48,739 nt of DNA from a virus, in the IMG/VR virus record IMGVR_UViG_3300029926_000006, positions 1 to 48,739 of that record, one strand, 5' to 3'. Below are positions 11,558 to 48,739 of this stretch, in pieces (within the stretch, counting starts at the first letter, position 1; each line of letters starts with the position of its first letter). The notes beneath the pieces are model-generated. The model saw only the letters and a list, made by a program, of their open reading frames with translations, made no database searches and was not told where the DNA came from. The position numbers were made by a program, and so were the translations under genes.

Positions 11558-14500
11558 ATGACTGTCAACACGACTAATATTGTTTCAGGCCCGTATACCG
11601 GCAACGGTGTGACCACTCAATTCAGTTATGGCTTCAGGGTTGACGATAAAACGCAACTCGTTGTCTATGAAACCGATGACTTAGGTGTTGAAAGCGTGTT
11701 GGTCGTTGACGTTGACTACACGGTTAATAACGTGGGCGATGATGCTGGTGGCACGATTGACCGTATCGCAGGCGCGTTGCCTACCGACTACACGTGGTAT
11801 ATCCGTTCTAATTATCTGCATCTTCAGCTAACCGCGTTCGCCTCACAGGGTGGATTCTTTCCAGACGTTCATGAAGCTGCGATGGATTTGCTGACGTTCT
11901 TATCCCAACAACAAGAGGACCGTATTGCACGCGCAATGCGATTCAACGATTCATATTCAGGCGGTGCAGATCCAGAACTACCTGTACCTGAAGCCGACAA
12001 AGTATTGGTCTGGTCCTCGGATGCCTTAAACATCATCAACGGACCGAGTGAAGGTACGTTCATGGGTTGGGCTGACGCAGCAATCGCAGCAGCAGCAGCG
12101 GCGGTGATCAGTGCCGACGCAGCAGCCGCCAGCGCAGTAGCAGCAGACTTGAGTAAGATTGCCGCCGCGTTGAGTGAGACTAACGCAGGTGACGCAGCCA
12201 ATGCAGCAATAGCAGCAGCAGCAGCAGCGGCGATAGATAAAGCAGCAGCAGCCGTCAGCGCAGCAGCAGCATTAGTCAGTCAAGGTGCTGCGTCAGACAG
12301 TGAGGCAGCAGCAGCAGCCAGTGCAGCAGCAGCCGCGATAGACCAGCTTGCAGCAGCAGCCAGTGCAGCAGCAGCATTAGTCAGTGAAGGTCTAGCAGAA
12401 TATTGGGCCGGGGAAGCACAGACCGCTGCTGGTGCAAATGAAAAGATTGCCGCACGTAACGCAGTACAAAACCAAGACGCAGTAAGCCAAGGTTTAGCAC
12501 AACGGTCTGGTATGAGTTCAACTATCTACACAGGTAACGGTACAAGCCAAAGTATTATTACTGGCGTTGATATGTCCAGCGGCGATTTTGGTGGCTTTAA
12601 CTGGATTAAAAATAGGGATGCTGCAATATCTCACGCCTTGACTGATTCAGTCAGGGGCGACTTTAGGTTAGAGAGTGACACAACCGCCGCAGAGTCAGCC
12701 ACTACAGCGGTAGCGCTAACGTCAACAGGGTTTGACTTGGTCACTGCAAGCAACAGATACAACCAAAATAGTGTTGATTATGTAGCTTGGTCATTCCAAA
12801 CCAATAAGAAAGCGTCACGTAATATAGCGATATACCCTGAACAATTTGATAATGCGGTATGGGCAAAATCGGCGGGCATAGTGGTTACACCTAACGCACA
12901 AATCGCACCTAATGGCTTTATGACAGCAGATGAATTGGCACATGACGGAGTGAACAATCGCGCCGTAGTGCAATCACCCACAACCTTAAAGGCTAACACC
13001 ACCTATACTTTTTCAATCTATTTAAAAATAATCTCCGGTAGTTTTACCGAGAATAGTAAATGTCAATTAGCAATTTATGGCAGTGGCCTTGTAGCTACAT
13101 CATCGGTGATTATTGGTGACGCACTTAACGGCGATTCTGAATGGCAGAGATTTGAAGCAACAGCGACAACAAACGGCGCACCGTCAGTAGCTAATTTCAG
13201 CATAAGGTGTGATGAGTTAGTCACCCTTGCTGAGTGGGGCGCACAGATTGAAGAAGGTAGCGCGGCAACCGATTATCAAAACGCAGAAACCAATCACGGC
13301 AAGCCTTACGAGTGTCACTACAATACTGAAATGGGCTTTAGTATTGTCGGCTATGAAGGTGATGAAGTCGCAGGCCATGAGATACCGCATCATCTAGGTG
13401 GCGAACCTGAATTAACAATCTATAAAAATAGAGAGAGCGTTTATTCTTGGATAGTAAAAGGGGCAATGTTTCAGGACGATGAGTTCTTATTCCTGAACGC
13501 CACTAATGCGCTGGCTACAGGTTATGTCAGTTCGCAAGATGATACGACTTTAACCGTGGACGATACGGAGGAGTTAAATGAAGCAGGCATAAATATCATC
13601 GCCTACAACTTCCGTTCTATCGCGGGCGTATCAAAAATAGGCAAGTACATCGGCACAGCGGCAACGGGTAATTATGTCGATTGCGGCTTTATTCCGCGCT
13701 TTGTGATGTTGAAAACGCTTGATTCTGCTGGTGGATGGGCGATGTATGACACTGCTAGGGGTATAGACCAAGTAGTAAATGCAGAGAGCAGTGACGCTGA
13801 AACTACTAACGTCAAGATTGAATTGACCGAGAATGGTTTTGTGCTTATTGGTACGTCATACAATGCACTTGACCAACAATATTTATTCATAACTTTTGCT
13901 GAAACTGACAGCGATGCCAACAAGTCATGGACGGATTACGACTACGCCGTTGATAAAGACGTTTTAGTTATTGAGCAAGATACCTTGGTGAGCTTTGCTA
14001 ATGGCTTCTCAGAAACAGGCCAAGTCGATACGCAATTCAATGTCGGCAGTGGCGTGACCTACAGCGAGAAAGGCGATGAGCTGGTAACTAATGGCACGTT
14101 TGATACTGATACCGATTGGAATAAAGGCGCAGGCTGGTCTATTGGTTCTGGTGTTGCAACCTCGGATGGTGCTAATGGAAACCAAGCGCTCAATCAAATT
14201 GTCAACCTTGTTGAAGGCGATACTTACCAAGTCTCTTTTGAGGTTACTGCCTATACTGCTGGTTTATTACAACTAGAGTTGATTGCTACGACAACCGTAG
14301 CCGCAATAAATGTCAATGCTACTGGCGTGTATACCGTTACTTATGTTGCCGAAGCTGACACCTCTATGATAGTTGTTTTTAGAAGCAATGCTAGCTCTCC
14401 TTTTGCTGGCGGTGTTGATAACGTATCGGTCAAAGTAGTAGTCAGCACACCTAAGAAACTCTACCTGTTCATGGACAAGACCGGCTTGCTTGGTTCAACT

Positions 14501-30244: not shown

Positions 30245-30355
30245 TGTTGCTTGCTTTGGCTAGGTGATGAATAGCTGTCATCACTGAACGCTTCTTTCCG
30301 GGGAAGCTGCCACGGCCCCACTTACCGGGTGATATCGACGGAGGATATTATTAAA

Positions 30356-32821
30356 ATGCATCCAATAATAAGAATTAATAACGACGAATTTCTACGCGGG
30401 ATTTTCCGCGAAAATTATCTAACCACCCATGTCAACAGCTTTGCTTTTGATCCAAATAATATTCCCAATGACATGCGTGGTATTGCATGGGCTGGTGGCT
30501 ATTATGAGAACACGCCGCTACGACCGGGAGAGAATCAATTTTTCTGCGTATCGCAGTTCATGATTGACTTCACCACGGGTCGAGCAGTCAGGCGTAAGGC
30601 CAACTTCCTTGCTACCTATCTAATCGTCGCTGATGACGTGGAAGAGAAGCTACCACTTGAGCAGGTCCAACGCTTGCCCAAGCCGAGCTACATACTCAGG
30701 ACATCCAACTACTCATATCAATGGGGCTGGATTCTGGAAGTCCCGGAAACGAACATGGACCGGGTCAACAACTTACTGGACCAACTGATTGCGAATGGTT
30801 TAGCACCTGACGGTACAGATCCGGGCATGAAAGGTGTCACCCGGTTGATACGCACACCTGATGGCTTCAACACCAAGGTCAAACGAATTGAAGAGAACGG
30901 TGGCGCGGCGCCACAGTGTGAAGTCACGCAGTGGAACCCGGAACTACGCTACACCATGGAACAGTTAGCCGAGCCCTTCAATGTTGAGCTCGACGCACCA
31001 CGGTCTGACGGTCGAGTTGACGGTGCAGCCGATGTGCCTGACCACCCGGTGCTGCAACATCTAGCTATCAAATCCACCTTGAGTGCAGGCCGATACGACA
31101 TCACCTGTCCATGGGTCGATACGCATACTGATAAAGACGACAGCGGTTCAGCCGTATTCACTAATGAAGATGGGACCGTTGGCTTCCAATGTCACCATGG
31201 TCACTGCCAAGAAAAGACAGCGGGTGACGTGCTCAACTTCCTGAACGTGACGGTCCCCGGCTTCTCGACGGTGTATTCAAACTGGAAGATGAACCGGGCT
31301 TTAGACACGTTGCCTGATATCCCAACGGCACCGCCATCAATGCAAGTACCGATACTCAGCTTCATGGGGGTGGCCCCGGTAAAGGAGGATGATAGCGGCA
31401 TGGACGCGGCGATAGTAAAGCTGTCTCACATGGTCCCCGGTGATGAGCAGCGGGTATTCGCTGAAACATTACTGCACACCATCAATGGTCTGAGCAATGA
31501 AATGTTGAAGATCACTTACAATGAAGATGTGCGACTCTCAATGGACTGGACCAAGTCTGAACTGACTAAAATTATCAAGGCCCTGCATCGCAGTCACGCG
31601 GTAGCGCATGGGGCCAACGATACAATGTGGCTACTCGACAACATCGTGCTGATGACTGAAGGTGCGGGTGGCTTCTATAATATCCATCGCAACGTATTCC
31701 AGTCCGCGTTCTCACTCACTGCAACCTACGGTCACATGGTGCTAGGTGATGAGACACCCGCCAGCGTGATAGCCAACAATCCCAACAAGCGAACAGCGGA
31801 CCGTATAGGGTGGCACCCGACAGCGGAACAGACCTTCGACTACGATGGTCGGACCTACCTGAATACCTACTCACCACCACGCATGATACCAATCCCCGGT
31901 GACGTCAGTCAGTGGCTACAACTCATGGACTTCCTATATAAAGAGCACGCACATCTACTCATTCAACACATGGCATTTACTTTGCAACGGCCCGACGTGA
32001 AAATTCGCTGGCAACCGTTGATTGGTGGTATCCCACGTAGCGGCAAGACAATGAGCATTAAACCATTGATAAAGATATTAGCCGGTAGTGCAGCCATGGT
32101 CAGTAATGATGACTTTGAAGCAGGATGGGGTGATGTCTTTAGTGAGAAGAAAGCGATTGCCTTTGAAGAAGTATGGCAACCAGATAAGCGGCAGTTCAAC
32201 AGGCTTAAAACGAAGTTGGCTAATGATGACATTGAAACGCTGAACATTAAGGGCCAAGGCTTGAAAACGCAGCGCAATCTATACAGTATCTATATGTTCA
32301 CCAACCATCTTGATGCGCTTCAGTTTGATGATAATGAAGATAAGCTGCTGGTCATACGGTGCAATGAGCGCATGAGTGTGGAGTTCTACCGTGAGCTTGG
32401 CAACAAGATAGACTTTGATGCGAATTACATTGCCCACATCTATCATTACCTGCTGAATGTGGATCTCAGTACCTTTGATCATGGACGTTTGCCAGTGCGT
32501 ACACAGGCCATGTATGACATGGTAAAAGAGAGTCGTCCTGAGTATGAAACTTTAGCACTGGAATGGCTTGAAGATGAAGTGTTTAATCCAGCCTGTTTTC
32601 GCATGGCAGATATGATGTCAAAACTACGAGATTGTACGACAGTCAGAAGCATGAAAAAGGTGGGGCAAATGTTGCATCGGGAAGGTTATATTTCTCATAA
32701 GGCCCAAAGAAAGGGCCATCCGGTAGTCAGGTTCTGGTCAAATGATGCTGCCTGCATTGATATGAAGCCGGTTGATTTGCACACTTACTACCACAAGATG
32801 CTCACAGCATCAATCCCATAA
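30356..32821 (+). CDS. Bifunctional primase-helicase (D5-like SF3)
   Basis: 821 residues from the ATG at 30356, chosen over an upstream GTG because GGAGG lies between them. The N-terminal 240 residues have the RepB/primase-type pattern (SYILRTSNYSYQWGWIL, then GVTRLIRTPDGFNTK). A zinc-binding segment follows (CPWVDTH from C251, and FQCHHGHC with C279, H283 and C284). The C-terminal half has SF3-type ATPase motifs: GGIPRSGKT (557-565), AIAFEEVWQPDKRQF (Walker B-like) and YMFTNHLDALQF (sensor). Phage proteins of this form prime and unwind at the origin. The candidate origin lies directly downstream. Confidence 0.9.
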   Translation: MHPIIRINNDEFLRGIFRENYLTTHVNSFAFDPNNIPNDMRGIAWAGGYYENTPLRPGENQFFCVSQFMIDFTTGRAVRRKANFLATYLIVADDVEEKLPLEQVQRLPKPSYILRTSNYSYQWGWILEVPETNMDRVNNLLDQLIANGLAPDGTDPGMKGVTRLIRTPDGFNTKVKRIEENGGAAPQCEVTQWNPELRYTMEQLAEPFNVELDAPRSDGRVDGAADVPDHPVLQHLAIKSTLSAGRYDITCPWVDTHTDKDDSGSAVFTNEDGTVGFQCHHGHCQEKTAGDVLNFLNVTVPGFSTVYSNWKMNRALDTLPDIPTAPPSMQVPILSFMGVAPVKEDDSGMDAAIVKLSHMVPGDEQRVFAETLLHTINGLSNEMLKITYNEDVRLSMDWTKSELTKIIKALHRSHAVAHGANDTMWLLDNIVLMTEGAGGFYNIHRNVFQSAFSLTATYGHMVLGDETPASVIANNPNKRTADRIGWHPTAEQTFDYDGRTYLNTYSPPRMIPIPGDVSQWLQLMDFLYKEHAHLLIQHMAFTLQRPDVKIRWQPLIGGIPRSGKTMSIKPLIKILAGSAAMVSNDDFEAGWGDVFSEKKAIAFEEVWQPDKRQFNRLKTKLANDDIETLNIKGQGLKTQRNLYSIYMFTNHLDALQFDDNEDKLLVIRCNERMSVEFYRELGNKIDFDANYIAHIYHYLLNVDLSTFDHGRLPVRTQAMYDMVKESRPEYETLALEWLEDEVFNPACFRMADMMSKLRDCTTVRSMKKVGQMLHREGYISHKAQRKGHPVVRFWSNDAACIDMKPVDLHTYYHKMLTASIP

Positions 32822-32830
32822 GCGTTAATG

Positions 32831-32861
32831 CTACTCTCAACACCAGTCGTGCTGGGAGTAG
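32831..32861 (+). other. Strong stem-loop after the primase-helicase gene
   Basis: A 13-base stem with one mismatch and one G-T pair (CTACTCTCAACAC with GTGCTGGGAGTAG) and a 5-base loop (CAGTC), starting 10 bases after the stop codon. No U-run follows, so it is not a standard intrinsic terminator. It may protect or end the primase transcript, or serve as an origin structure. Confidence 0.6.
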
Positions 32862-32891
32862 TAATGCTGTGAGCGTTGATACCCACTTCAG

Positions 32892-33105
32892 TGACTACTT
32901 TTGCTATCTGACTACCTTTACTGACTACCTAAAAACTCTAATGAAAACAATAGTATATATATACTTTTAATAAAGGTAGTCAGGTAGTCACTACTACTAA
33001 TACTTATACTTAACACTGTTATAAACGTTAATGTAAATTCTCAACGATTTACGTTTTCATCCTCTTACGGTATTAGTAGTCACAAACTACTGACTACCGA
33101 CTACC
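32892..33105. other. Candidate replication origin: GACTAC(C)-type iterons around an AT-rich core
   Basis: Eight copies of a GACTAC(C)-type element lie in this 366-base gene-free gap. Direct copies start at 32892, 32909 and 32922 (TGACTAC, TGACTACC, TGACTACC). Inverted copies GGTAGTCA are back to back at 32975-32982 and 32983-32990. GTAGTCA is at 33076, and direct copies are at 33091 and 33099. Between the first two groups is an AT-rich stretch with TAGTATATATATAC. Iterons, an AT-rich unwinding element and an adjacent primase-helicase gene are the usual parts of a replication origin. The repeat pattern is seen directly; the origin function is inferred. Confidence 0.65.
33030..33055. other. Second stem-loop in the origin region
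   Basis: AATGTAAAT pairs with ATTTACGTT (one G-T pair) around an 8-base loop (TCTCAACG). It lies between the inverted iterons at 32975-32990 and the cluster at 33076-33105. Confidence 0.5.
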
Positions 33106-33114
33106 TTTGATTTG

Positions 33115-33144
33115 TTGACACTGTCGGACACTGTCTGCTAGTAT
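33115..33144 (+). promoter_or_regulatory. Rightward promoter with full operator in its spacer
   Basis: TTGACA (33115-33120), an 18-base spacer made of CTGTCGGACACTGTC (33121-33135) plus TGC, then TAGTAT (33139-33144, 4 of 6). The operator fills the space between -35 and -10, the classic position for tight repression. The predicted start is near 33151, followed by the ribosome-binding site GGAG and ATG at 33188. Confidence 0.7.
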
Positions 33145-33187
33145 CTTGGATGGGGCAATGTTGCCCGGTGTAAATGGAGTTTGAAAC

Positions 33188-34727: not shown

Positions 34728-34836
34728 AGCCGAGTTGCACAATGCCAACATTGAGGCTGACAAGAAGCAGCGTTCAAAGTGGGCCATACGTGCACTTCGT
34801 GAAGAGTTTAACAAAGGACGAGAAGGGACGATATGA
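34696..34836 (+). CDS. Tiny basic protein upstream of TerS
   Basis: 46 residues, strongly basic (MLNSRQRRRLEAELHNANIE and so on). It overlaps the end of the previous gene by 32 bases in another frame, and its stop overlaps the TerS start (ATGA). The ribosome-binding site is poor (GAAAGAAG). The exact junction with TerS favours it as a coupled gene, but it could be a chance frame. Confidence 0.45.
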   Translation: MLNSRQRRRLEAELHNANIEADKKQRSKWAIRALREEFNKGREGTI

Positions 34837-47296: not shown

Positions 47297-48739
47297 TGGC
47301 TGAACAAAATAGATTTGATGCAATCATTGATGATTCATTCACGTCGGACCCGTTGCGTGCGACATTAAGTGAATCCATGAAGGAAAGCCCTGACAACCGG
47401 GCTAAAATTCTGGACCTGTCAAACAAGACTGGTATACCTGCTGAAGCAGTAGCACCTGATGTTGCAGGGGTGGAAGCACAGGCCAGATTTGATGCTGTTG
47501 ATATCAAGGGTATGACGCTTCGTTCTCCTGTGACCAGCGACTTCCTGTCGAATTATGATAATGCGTCAGTCTCACATGATGACATTGAAAACCTTGAGCA
47601 GACTGAGCATTTATTTTCAGGACTAGGTCGGGTCATATCATTACGATATCAAGACATTTTGGCAGGTACACAACTCAAAGCGATTGAAGAACGTCAACGA
47701 CTTGGTATTGGGAGGTATCTGGCTGCTGAAGATTTGGACCCCATTACGCAGGATTTAATTGAGCGAAACATTAACGCTACTCAAGATCGAACTGCTGAAC
47801 TACTTGAAGGTATCCGCCAGCGTGGGGAAGATATCAATGCTTTAACACCACAAGATTTAAACATCCTTGAAGAAGGTGCAAGGGCTGGTGTTGAATCCTT
47901 ATCAGTGATGCTACCAGCATTAGCTATTGGTGCTGCAACACGCACCGGGGTGACTGGCGTGCTGTCCTCAATCGGTGTCACCACCATGGGGGCCAATTAT
48001 GGTTCAGCACGTGAGAAAGGATTAGATCCTGACGAAGCACTATTGTATTCACAAATCCAAACCGTCATAGAAGTCGGTACTGAACTGCTGCCTGTTAAGT
48101 CGCTGGTTGATATCGTGTCCAGTAAGACCCGATCCCAGCTTGGTAAGAACGTATTGCAATTCATAGTCCGTGAAATGGGTACTGAGCAGCTTGCTACGCT
48201 GGGTCAGACCATTACTGATTATGCGTTTGACCTTGATGAACAATTAAAAGCTGCTTCATCGGTTGGTGAAATGGCGGCTATCCAAGCACGTCGTCAAGCT
48301 GTGACAGCGATTGCTACTATTGTGGGTGGTGGTGCACAAGCCGGGATTGCTGCGACAATCAATGCAGGCGTGCAGGCGGTAAGCAAAGACGAACAGATGA
48401 AGGATGTCAAAGGTGAAGCCGAGCAATCATCCATAGATGACATCGTGGACTTGGCTGAACAATCCAAAGTTAAAGATCGCAGCACTGAAACATTCCGACA
48501 ATTTATAGAACAAGCTGCACCTAATGACGTGGTTTACATCGACGGACCACAGGCAGCATTGTACTTGCAGGAAGTGGGCGAGGTTGAAGGTGATCCAGTC
48601 TTGGAGGCCATCACTAAACAAATCGGTGAAGCAGCCGTGACGAATGGTGAAGTGGTTATCCCGGTTGCAGACTTTGCTGCTGACTTTGTGGGCAGTGAGC
48701 ATTTTGAAGCGTTGCGTCCGCACATGACATTGAGTGCTG
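47296..48739 (+). CDS. Internal virion (ejection) protein, N-terminal part
   Basis: This begins the 646-residue protein completed at 1-596. Helical N-terminus, then a hydrophobic Gly/Ala-rich segment at about 195-225 (GARAGVESLSVMLPALAIGA) followed by EKGLDPDEALLYSQIQTVIEVGTELLPV. A second hydrophobic stretch is near 335-355 (AIATIVGGGAQAGIAATINAG). This pattern of a Gly-rich membrane-active segment before an 'A..E..tE..P' helix occurs in large phage virion proteins that cross the envelope. It is probably ejected with DNA, next to gp15-like and the 2538-residue protein. The start shares one base with the upstream stop. Confidence 0.85.
   Translation, partial: MAEQNRFDAIIDDSFTSDPLRATLSESMKESPDNRAKILDLSNKTGIPAEAVAPDVAGVEAQARFDAVDIKGMTLRSPVTSDFLSNYDNASVSHDDIENLEQTEHLFSGLGRVISLRYQDILAGTQLKAIEERQRLGIGRYLAAEDLDPITQDLIERNINATQDRTAELLEGIRQRGEDINALTPQDLNILEEGARAGVESLSVMLPALAIGAATRTGVTGVLSSIGVTTMGANYGSAREKGLDPDEALLYSQIQTVIEVGTELLPVKSLVDIVSSKTRSQLGKNVLQFIVREMGTEQLATLGQTITDYAFDLDEQLKAASSVGEMAAIQARRQAVTAIATIVGGGAQAGIAATINAGVQAVSKDEQMKDVKGEAEQSSIDDIVDLAEQSKVKDRSTETFRQFIEQAAPNDVVYIDGPQAALYLQEVGEVEGDPVLEAITKQIGEAAVTNGEVVIPVADFAADFVGSEHFEALRPHMTLSA
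48641..48739. repeat. Terminal overlap, right copy
   Basis: Identical to bases 1-99; see the left copy. It lies inside the ejection-protein gene, in frame. Confidence 0.95.

Follow-up and report, generated by a model that had tools for sequence, protein, structure and literature searches.

Few phages have mapped replication origins. Among the closest described systems, ori and crr of P4 are experimentally known sites, and their type I iterons are read by the winged-helix tail of alpha. The annotated crr carries GGTGAACA words and follows alpha closely on its 3′ side, after a terminator, while ori is laid out as < 2 < 3 < 14 > 35 < 2 < (arrowheads for word orientation, numbers for spacer nucleotides), a spacing matched by many of the arrays described below. 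In the islands SaPI and SCCmec, the C-terminal domains of Rep and Cch2, respectively, are reported to recognize iterons directly downstream of their own genes (PMC7581432), and the archaeal plasmid pRN1 depends on a stem-loop that begins 54 bp past the 3′ end of its primase-helicase gene, a plan that its authors suggested for phages as well (PMC4234260). Priming in NrS-1, in turn, depends on an 8-nt template sequence present in one copy per strand near the genome centre (PMC7102993).

The window analysed here, a virus record 48,739 bases long, begins and ends with the same 99 bases (1-99 and 48641-48739, a direct terminal repeat) and therefore represents a complete circular assembly, though handled as linear. 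Immediately upstream of an intergenic array of short repeats lies a D5/DUF5906-type helicase gene, an arrangement of the SaPI/D5-like kind, and the array itself occupies the position of crr, directly 3′ of the primase-helicase gene. As in P4, words of 8 nt stand in direct and inverted orientation, partly as tandem pairs, across an AT-rich gap; unlike P4, where the word is GGTGAACA and two cis sites (ori and crr) are needed, there is a single cluster. The SaPI and SCCmec islands share the iterons directly past a D5-like helicase gene but use another word, whereas this phage is free-standing and podovirus-type. With pRN1 the phage has in common a single primase-helicase protein and an element just 3′ of its gene, although the essential pRN1 element is a stem-loop with no iteron array reported.

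The statistics of the array, its retention in the nearest relative and its repeated occurrence next to related helicases of unrelated phages, together with the P4, SaPI/SCCmec and pRN1 parallels and with fold matches to NrS-1, D5 and SaPI5, make it very likely that the gap is the phage's replication origin, helicase-linked in the manner of P4 and SaPI, and that the primase-helicase probably reads its words through a predicted winged-helix tail. If so, the origin of a metagenomic podovirus would be located base by base. A prior sequence-only reading had proposed an iteron-type origin beside this gene; that core idea is supported by the nearest relative and by the helicase co-occurrence, and three side points taken up below are not supported.

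An iteron array in the largest gap of the genome

The gap is indeed the largest between likely genes, as had been proposed (the next is 324 nt; gene list drawn by hand from the open reading frames). It contains the expected eight copies of GACTAC, on the plus strand at 32893, 32910, 32923, 33092 and 33099 and on the minus strand at 32976, 32984 and 33076, and a ninth lies at 32723 (minus) within the end of the helicase gene. With > for GACTAC and < for its complement, the layout in the gap reads > 11 > 7 > 47 < 2 < 86 < 10 > 1 >, the 47-nt spacer containing the TATATATATA core (Table 1). TGACTAC occurs eight times in 32723-33097 and 17 times genome-wide (shuffle mean 5.9, sd 2.4). Its complement GTAGTCA is the most clustered non-coding 7-mer of the genome, with eight copies in less than 400 nt forming the only such cluster; in 60 genome shuffles no 7-mer exceeded five copies per 400 nt, and the only denser 7-mer belongs to a CAG-type repeat within a gene at 12.1 kb. 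Furthermore, the strongest inverted repeat, which had previously gone unremarked, pairs 32904-32920 with 32971-32987 and is made of the inner iterons.

Table 1. Features of the candidate origin and of the gene upstream (window positions).
Feature	Coordinates	Strand	Remarks
Primase-helicase gene	30329-32821	+	830 aa; primase of RepB/AEP type at the N-terminus, DUF5906 helicase (SF3/D5-like), and a winged-helix tail at the C-terminus, the proposed iteron reader
Predicted C-terminal winged helix, codons	32543-32740	+	Residues 739-804, helix-helix-helix-strand-strand; model pLDDT about 74-87
Iteron word TGACTACC inside helicase gene 3′ end	32722-32729	-	
Intergenic region, candidate replication origin	32822-33187		366 nt; same position in nearest relative
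Stem-loop just past stop codon	32831-32861	+	No T-run found; may be a terminator or a structural element
Iteron TGACTAC	32892-32898	+	
Inverted repeat made of iterons	32904-32987		17 nt, 94% complementary, 50-nt AT-rich loop, z -5.1
Iteron TGACTACC	32909-32916	+	
Iteron TGACTACC	32922-32929	+	
AT-rich core, proposed unwinding element	32931-32975		84% AT; includes TAGTATATATATAC at 32951-32964
Iteron TGACTACC, first of tandem pair GGTAGTCAGGTAGTCA	32975-32982	-	
Iteron TGACTACC, second of tandem pair GGTAGTCAGGTAGTCA	32983-32990	-	AAAGGTAGTCAGGTAnnCACTA kept in nearest relative
Iteron TGACTAC	33076-33082	-	
Iteron TGACTACC	33091-33098	+	
Degenerate iteron GACTACC	33099-33105	+	Abuts iteron 33091-33098
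Promoter-like site TTGACA-N18-TAGTAT, for rightward genes	33115-33144	+	Overlapped by TGTCSGACA palindrome 33122-33130

Both of the stem-loops noted earlier exist. Folding of the RNA strands gives them modest scores (z -2.2 across 32822-32890, z -1.7 across 33010-33070), and a scan for terminator-like sites returned none at the first. Rfam and tRNA scans of the whole 48,739-nt stretch were empty. At the right edge of the gap stands a promoter-like site of a form expected about once by chance in this stretch. The palindrome that overlaps it, TGTC(C/G)GACA, occurs six times in the genome (27214, 30165, 30206, 33122, 36586 and 36596), always in gaps near promoter-like stretches. It resembles an operator for a phage regulator and is distinct from the iterons.

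The promoter-like site and its palindrome, along with the stem-loop after the stop codon, are what would be expected if the repeats were operators controlling the rightward promoter at 33115, or served to end the primase transcript. We consider this very unlikely: four other intergenic sites with the palindrome have no GTAGTCA, so that the operator word appears to be a different one, and most iterons, at a distance of 100-220 nt upstream from the promoter, surround the AT core with the spacing grammar that known origins have. GC skew, which had been put forward as a check on the origin, proved uninformative and was rejected as evidence, since on this genome it tracks gene direction and shows no switch at third codon positions.

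Iteron arrays had also been called unusual for a T7-like podovirus. The connector and tail genes are podovirus-type, and the label may fit parts of the virion; the replication module, by contrast, appears to be of the P4/D5/NrS-1 kind, in which such arrays are usual. Its primase-helicase is of the DUF5906 kind; a T7-like module would have one of gp4 type (SF4). Genes in a leftward block (17.7-30.1 kb) match DNA polymerase, helicase, SSB and exonuclease families in Pfam and PHROGs, the polymerase being family A-type (phrog_1252). A search for a T7-type RNA polymerase drew no RNA_pol match from the genome, nor did it from the control genomes. Elsewhere in the genome, a CAG/CTG-type repeat at 12086-12130, inside a 1464-aa tail-related gene, reaches 13 copies of a 7-mer per 400 nt.

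The primase-helicase as candidate reader of the words

Pfam matches of the 830-aa protein to RepB_primase and DUF5906 are weak (below or near the cut-off), and its PHROG matches, of similar standing, are to DNA primase families. Sequence searches for solved structures matched nothing, and neither blastp nor profile comparison detected significant similarity to P4 alpha. The AlphaFold2 model (mean pLDDT 79, pTM 0.45) finds NrS-1 helicase as its best PDB fold match (E 5.9e-16), followed by vaccinia D5 and then the SaPI5 primase-helicase. The predicted C-terminal winged helix comes from one full-length model, modelling of the tail alone having given a poor structure.

A single-protein query for relatives matched nothing, while an alignment query succeeded. 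The nearest relative is a contig (L006) cut within the gene, with the primase half 61-62% identical and the remainder, the helicase half, at the contig's other end (63% identical). The sequence-only reading had made retention of the repeats in close relatives its touchstone, and here they are kept at the same spot: past the stop codon, a hairpin-like stretch is followed by GGTAGTCAGGTAACCAC and, 94 AT-rich bases later, by GTGGTTACCTGACTACC, the two together forming a perfect 17-nt iteron inverted repeat. AAAGGTAGTCAGGTAnnCACTA, TTGACA and TAGTAT are all conserved, some iteron words are altered to GGTAACCA, and the gene that follows in the phage (VxxGMFxCxGC) is also found downstream, one gene later. 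Relatives that share the primase half (34-37%) and have another tail are without the word, and Vibrio phages that share this half show no GTAGTCA cluster 3′ of the gene, one of them having TGACAC-type repeats some 4 kb beyond; conservation is thus confined by protein to the nearest relative and by word to helicases.

Arrays of other words occur among the more distant relatives. In a 34% primase relative, TTGGTCCA words in both directions surround an AT-rich core about 210 nt past the primase-helicase gene (L013:9938-10160), the same plan with a different word. Relatives that include Vibrio phage 1.185.O carry TGACAC-type repeat arrays 4-5 kb past the gene (L018:14340-14690 and L005:12860-13120), possibly origins at another place.

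GTAGTCA also stands beside VapE helicases of about 400-490 aa (L124, L237 and L278), too short for a fused primase. Together with the primase-half relatives that lack the word, these short helicases point indirectly to the helicase and its tail, not the primase, as reader. The N-terminal domain had been suggested for this role; on comparative grounds, the C-terminal winged helix is the likelier candidate. The same observations bear on whether the words could be priming sites of the NrS-1 type used by the N-terminal primase half, as might be thought from the fold of the helicase half, which most resembles NrS-1, and from the dependence of NrS-1 priming itself on an 8-nt template sequence (PMC7102993). 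The eight copies here are paired and inverted around an AT core, whereas the NrS-1 pattern is two single copies without an array; the short helicases leave no room for a primase, and the relatives with the primase half but a different tail are without the word. Priming sites of this type are accordingly an improbable explanation, with little chance of being correct.

For the origin reading we infer the following mechanism. The C-terminal winged-helix tail of the primase-helicase encoded by the upstream gene would bind the GGTAGTCA words, and copies bound in opposed orientation on either side of the TATATA core could load helicase rings that point towards or away from one another. Melting of the core would follow, the attached primase domain would make primers, and the family A-type polymerase, SSB and exonuclease/helicase genes would continue replication.

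The GTAGTCA word beside helicases of unrelated phages

A scan for exact GGTAGTCAGGTAGTCA retrieved contigs not related through the query protein. TATATA stretches are again flanked by the word there, and the genes adjoining these arrays, chosen by DNA alone, encode VapE-like or DUF5906 helicases. From the recurrent layout in these contigs (> N27-47 < N1-3 <) we set up a gene-blind scan for TGACTAC-N22-50-GTAGTCA-N1-3-GTAGTCA, with the reversed word as control. The grammar was matched by at least 119 stretches of viral contigs, where the reversed word had 8 matches, and by 21 stretches of genome contigs; because the viral-contig counts include near copies, the 11 helicase clusters given below are the safer number. 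Many matches of a looser scan for direct triples were coding repeats (periods of 9 or 18 within long open reading frames) and were set aside. A literature search for the word itself found only unrelated papers, full-text search being weak for a 7-letter sequence.

Among the matches listed, a VapE/DUF5906 (D5-like) helicase gene was recognized at 79 of 141 loci, with the array 3′ of it in 77 of the 79 and within 600 nt in 61; several of the 62 loci with no recognized helicase in the available DNA are contig ends or belong to other families, such as a D5_N gene in L313. Genome contigs with such a helicase beside the array include ones from Streptococcus, Clostridium asparagiforme, Bacteroidales, Saprospiraceae and Sphingobacterium. 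Four or more words stand in the 600 nt 3′ of 72 helicase genes, which form 11 clusters at a 45% identity cut, although the helicase profiles were partly built from array-bearing loci and may favour those, a bias from which the DNA scan and the genome VapE collection are free. GTAGTCA is scattered over a quickly built tree of VapE domains, some branches of which are long, and needs 10 changes there, at least 5 of them forced by well supported branches, so that no single protein feature reading the word is picked out.

In Burkholderia-type prophage contigs (L118, L112, L109 and L092), 4-5 GTAGTCA words lie directly before the terminase small subunit gene; in L092, a VapE gene about 2.5 kb upstream carries an FtsK_gamma domain (Pfam).

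Such a placement would suit a packaging (pac) site or terminase-binding region between replication and terminase genes, and in the present phage the terminase small and large subunits are encoded nearby, at 34833 and 35254. The Burkholderia-type prophages nonetheless also have the upstream VapE gene, streptococcal integrase-repressor-VapE elements have the array after VapE with no terminase among the neighbours scanned, and across the 11 clusters the arrays follow the helicase gene, not the terminase. A packaging function is therefore extremely unlikely.

To this we add VapE genes gathered by family from whole genomes, without use of the motif (Clostridia-, Bacteroidia- and Alphaproteobacteria-type classes, inferred from named centre records). 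With two seeded loci left out, a 7-mer occurs at least five times in 400 nt in 31 of 51 3′ flanks versus 1 of 21 5′ flanks, and the array words vary by lineage, mostly differing from GTAGTCA. In four cultured VapE phages (Marinobacter PS3, Paenibacillus Pd_22F, Fusobacterium phiPaco and Enterococcus phiFL4A) a short-word array comes immediately after the helicase gene, often with an AT-rich core, as in this phage; unlike it, they use words of their own, GGGGTGACC, CGTCAACA, GGACAACC and AGTATCCA, respectively. A fifth, Haddon, has a weaker array farther from the gene. Even among the 8 reversed-word matches, 2 are real-looking arrays 3′ of a DUF5906 gene. The motif-free flanks, the cultured phages and the reversed-word arrays together indicate that the 3′ array is the rule and GTAGTCA one common word.

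Judging from the wider comparison, short-word arrays just past the helicase gene may serve to locate the origins of phages with D5-like helicases. The chances seem evenly balanced for a broader proposal, namely that GTAGTCA is a recurrent origin word of many distantly related phages with DUF5906/VapE helicases, with Bacillota and Bacteroidota among the hosts, and that D5-like helicase genes carry their own 3′ origin with a swappable word of 7-9 nt that tracks the tail. Were this true, origins would be predictable from sequence across thousands of phages and a protein-word code derivable by comparison. The presence of the same word beside 11 helicase clusters opens word choice by the predicted winged-helix tail to direct test.

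In two contigs (L378:3918-4116 and L381:10585-10704), arrays with seven copies of the reversed control word, CATCAGT, lie about 900 nt 3′ of DUF5906 genes, which makes CATCAGT a likely iteron word in another lineage.
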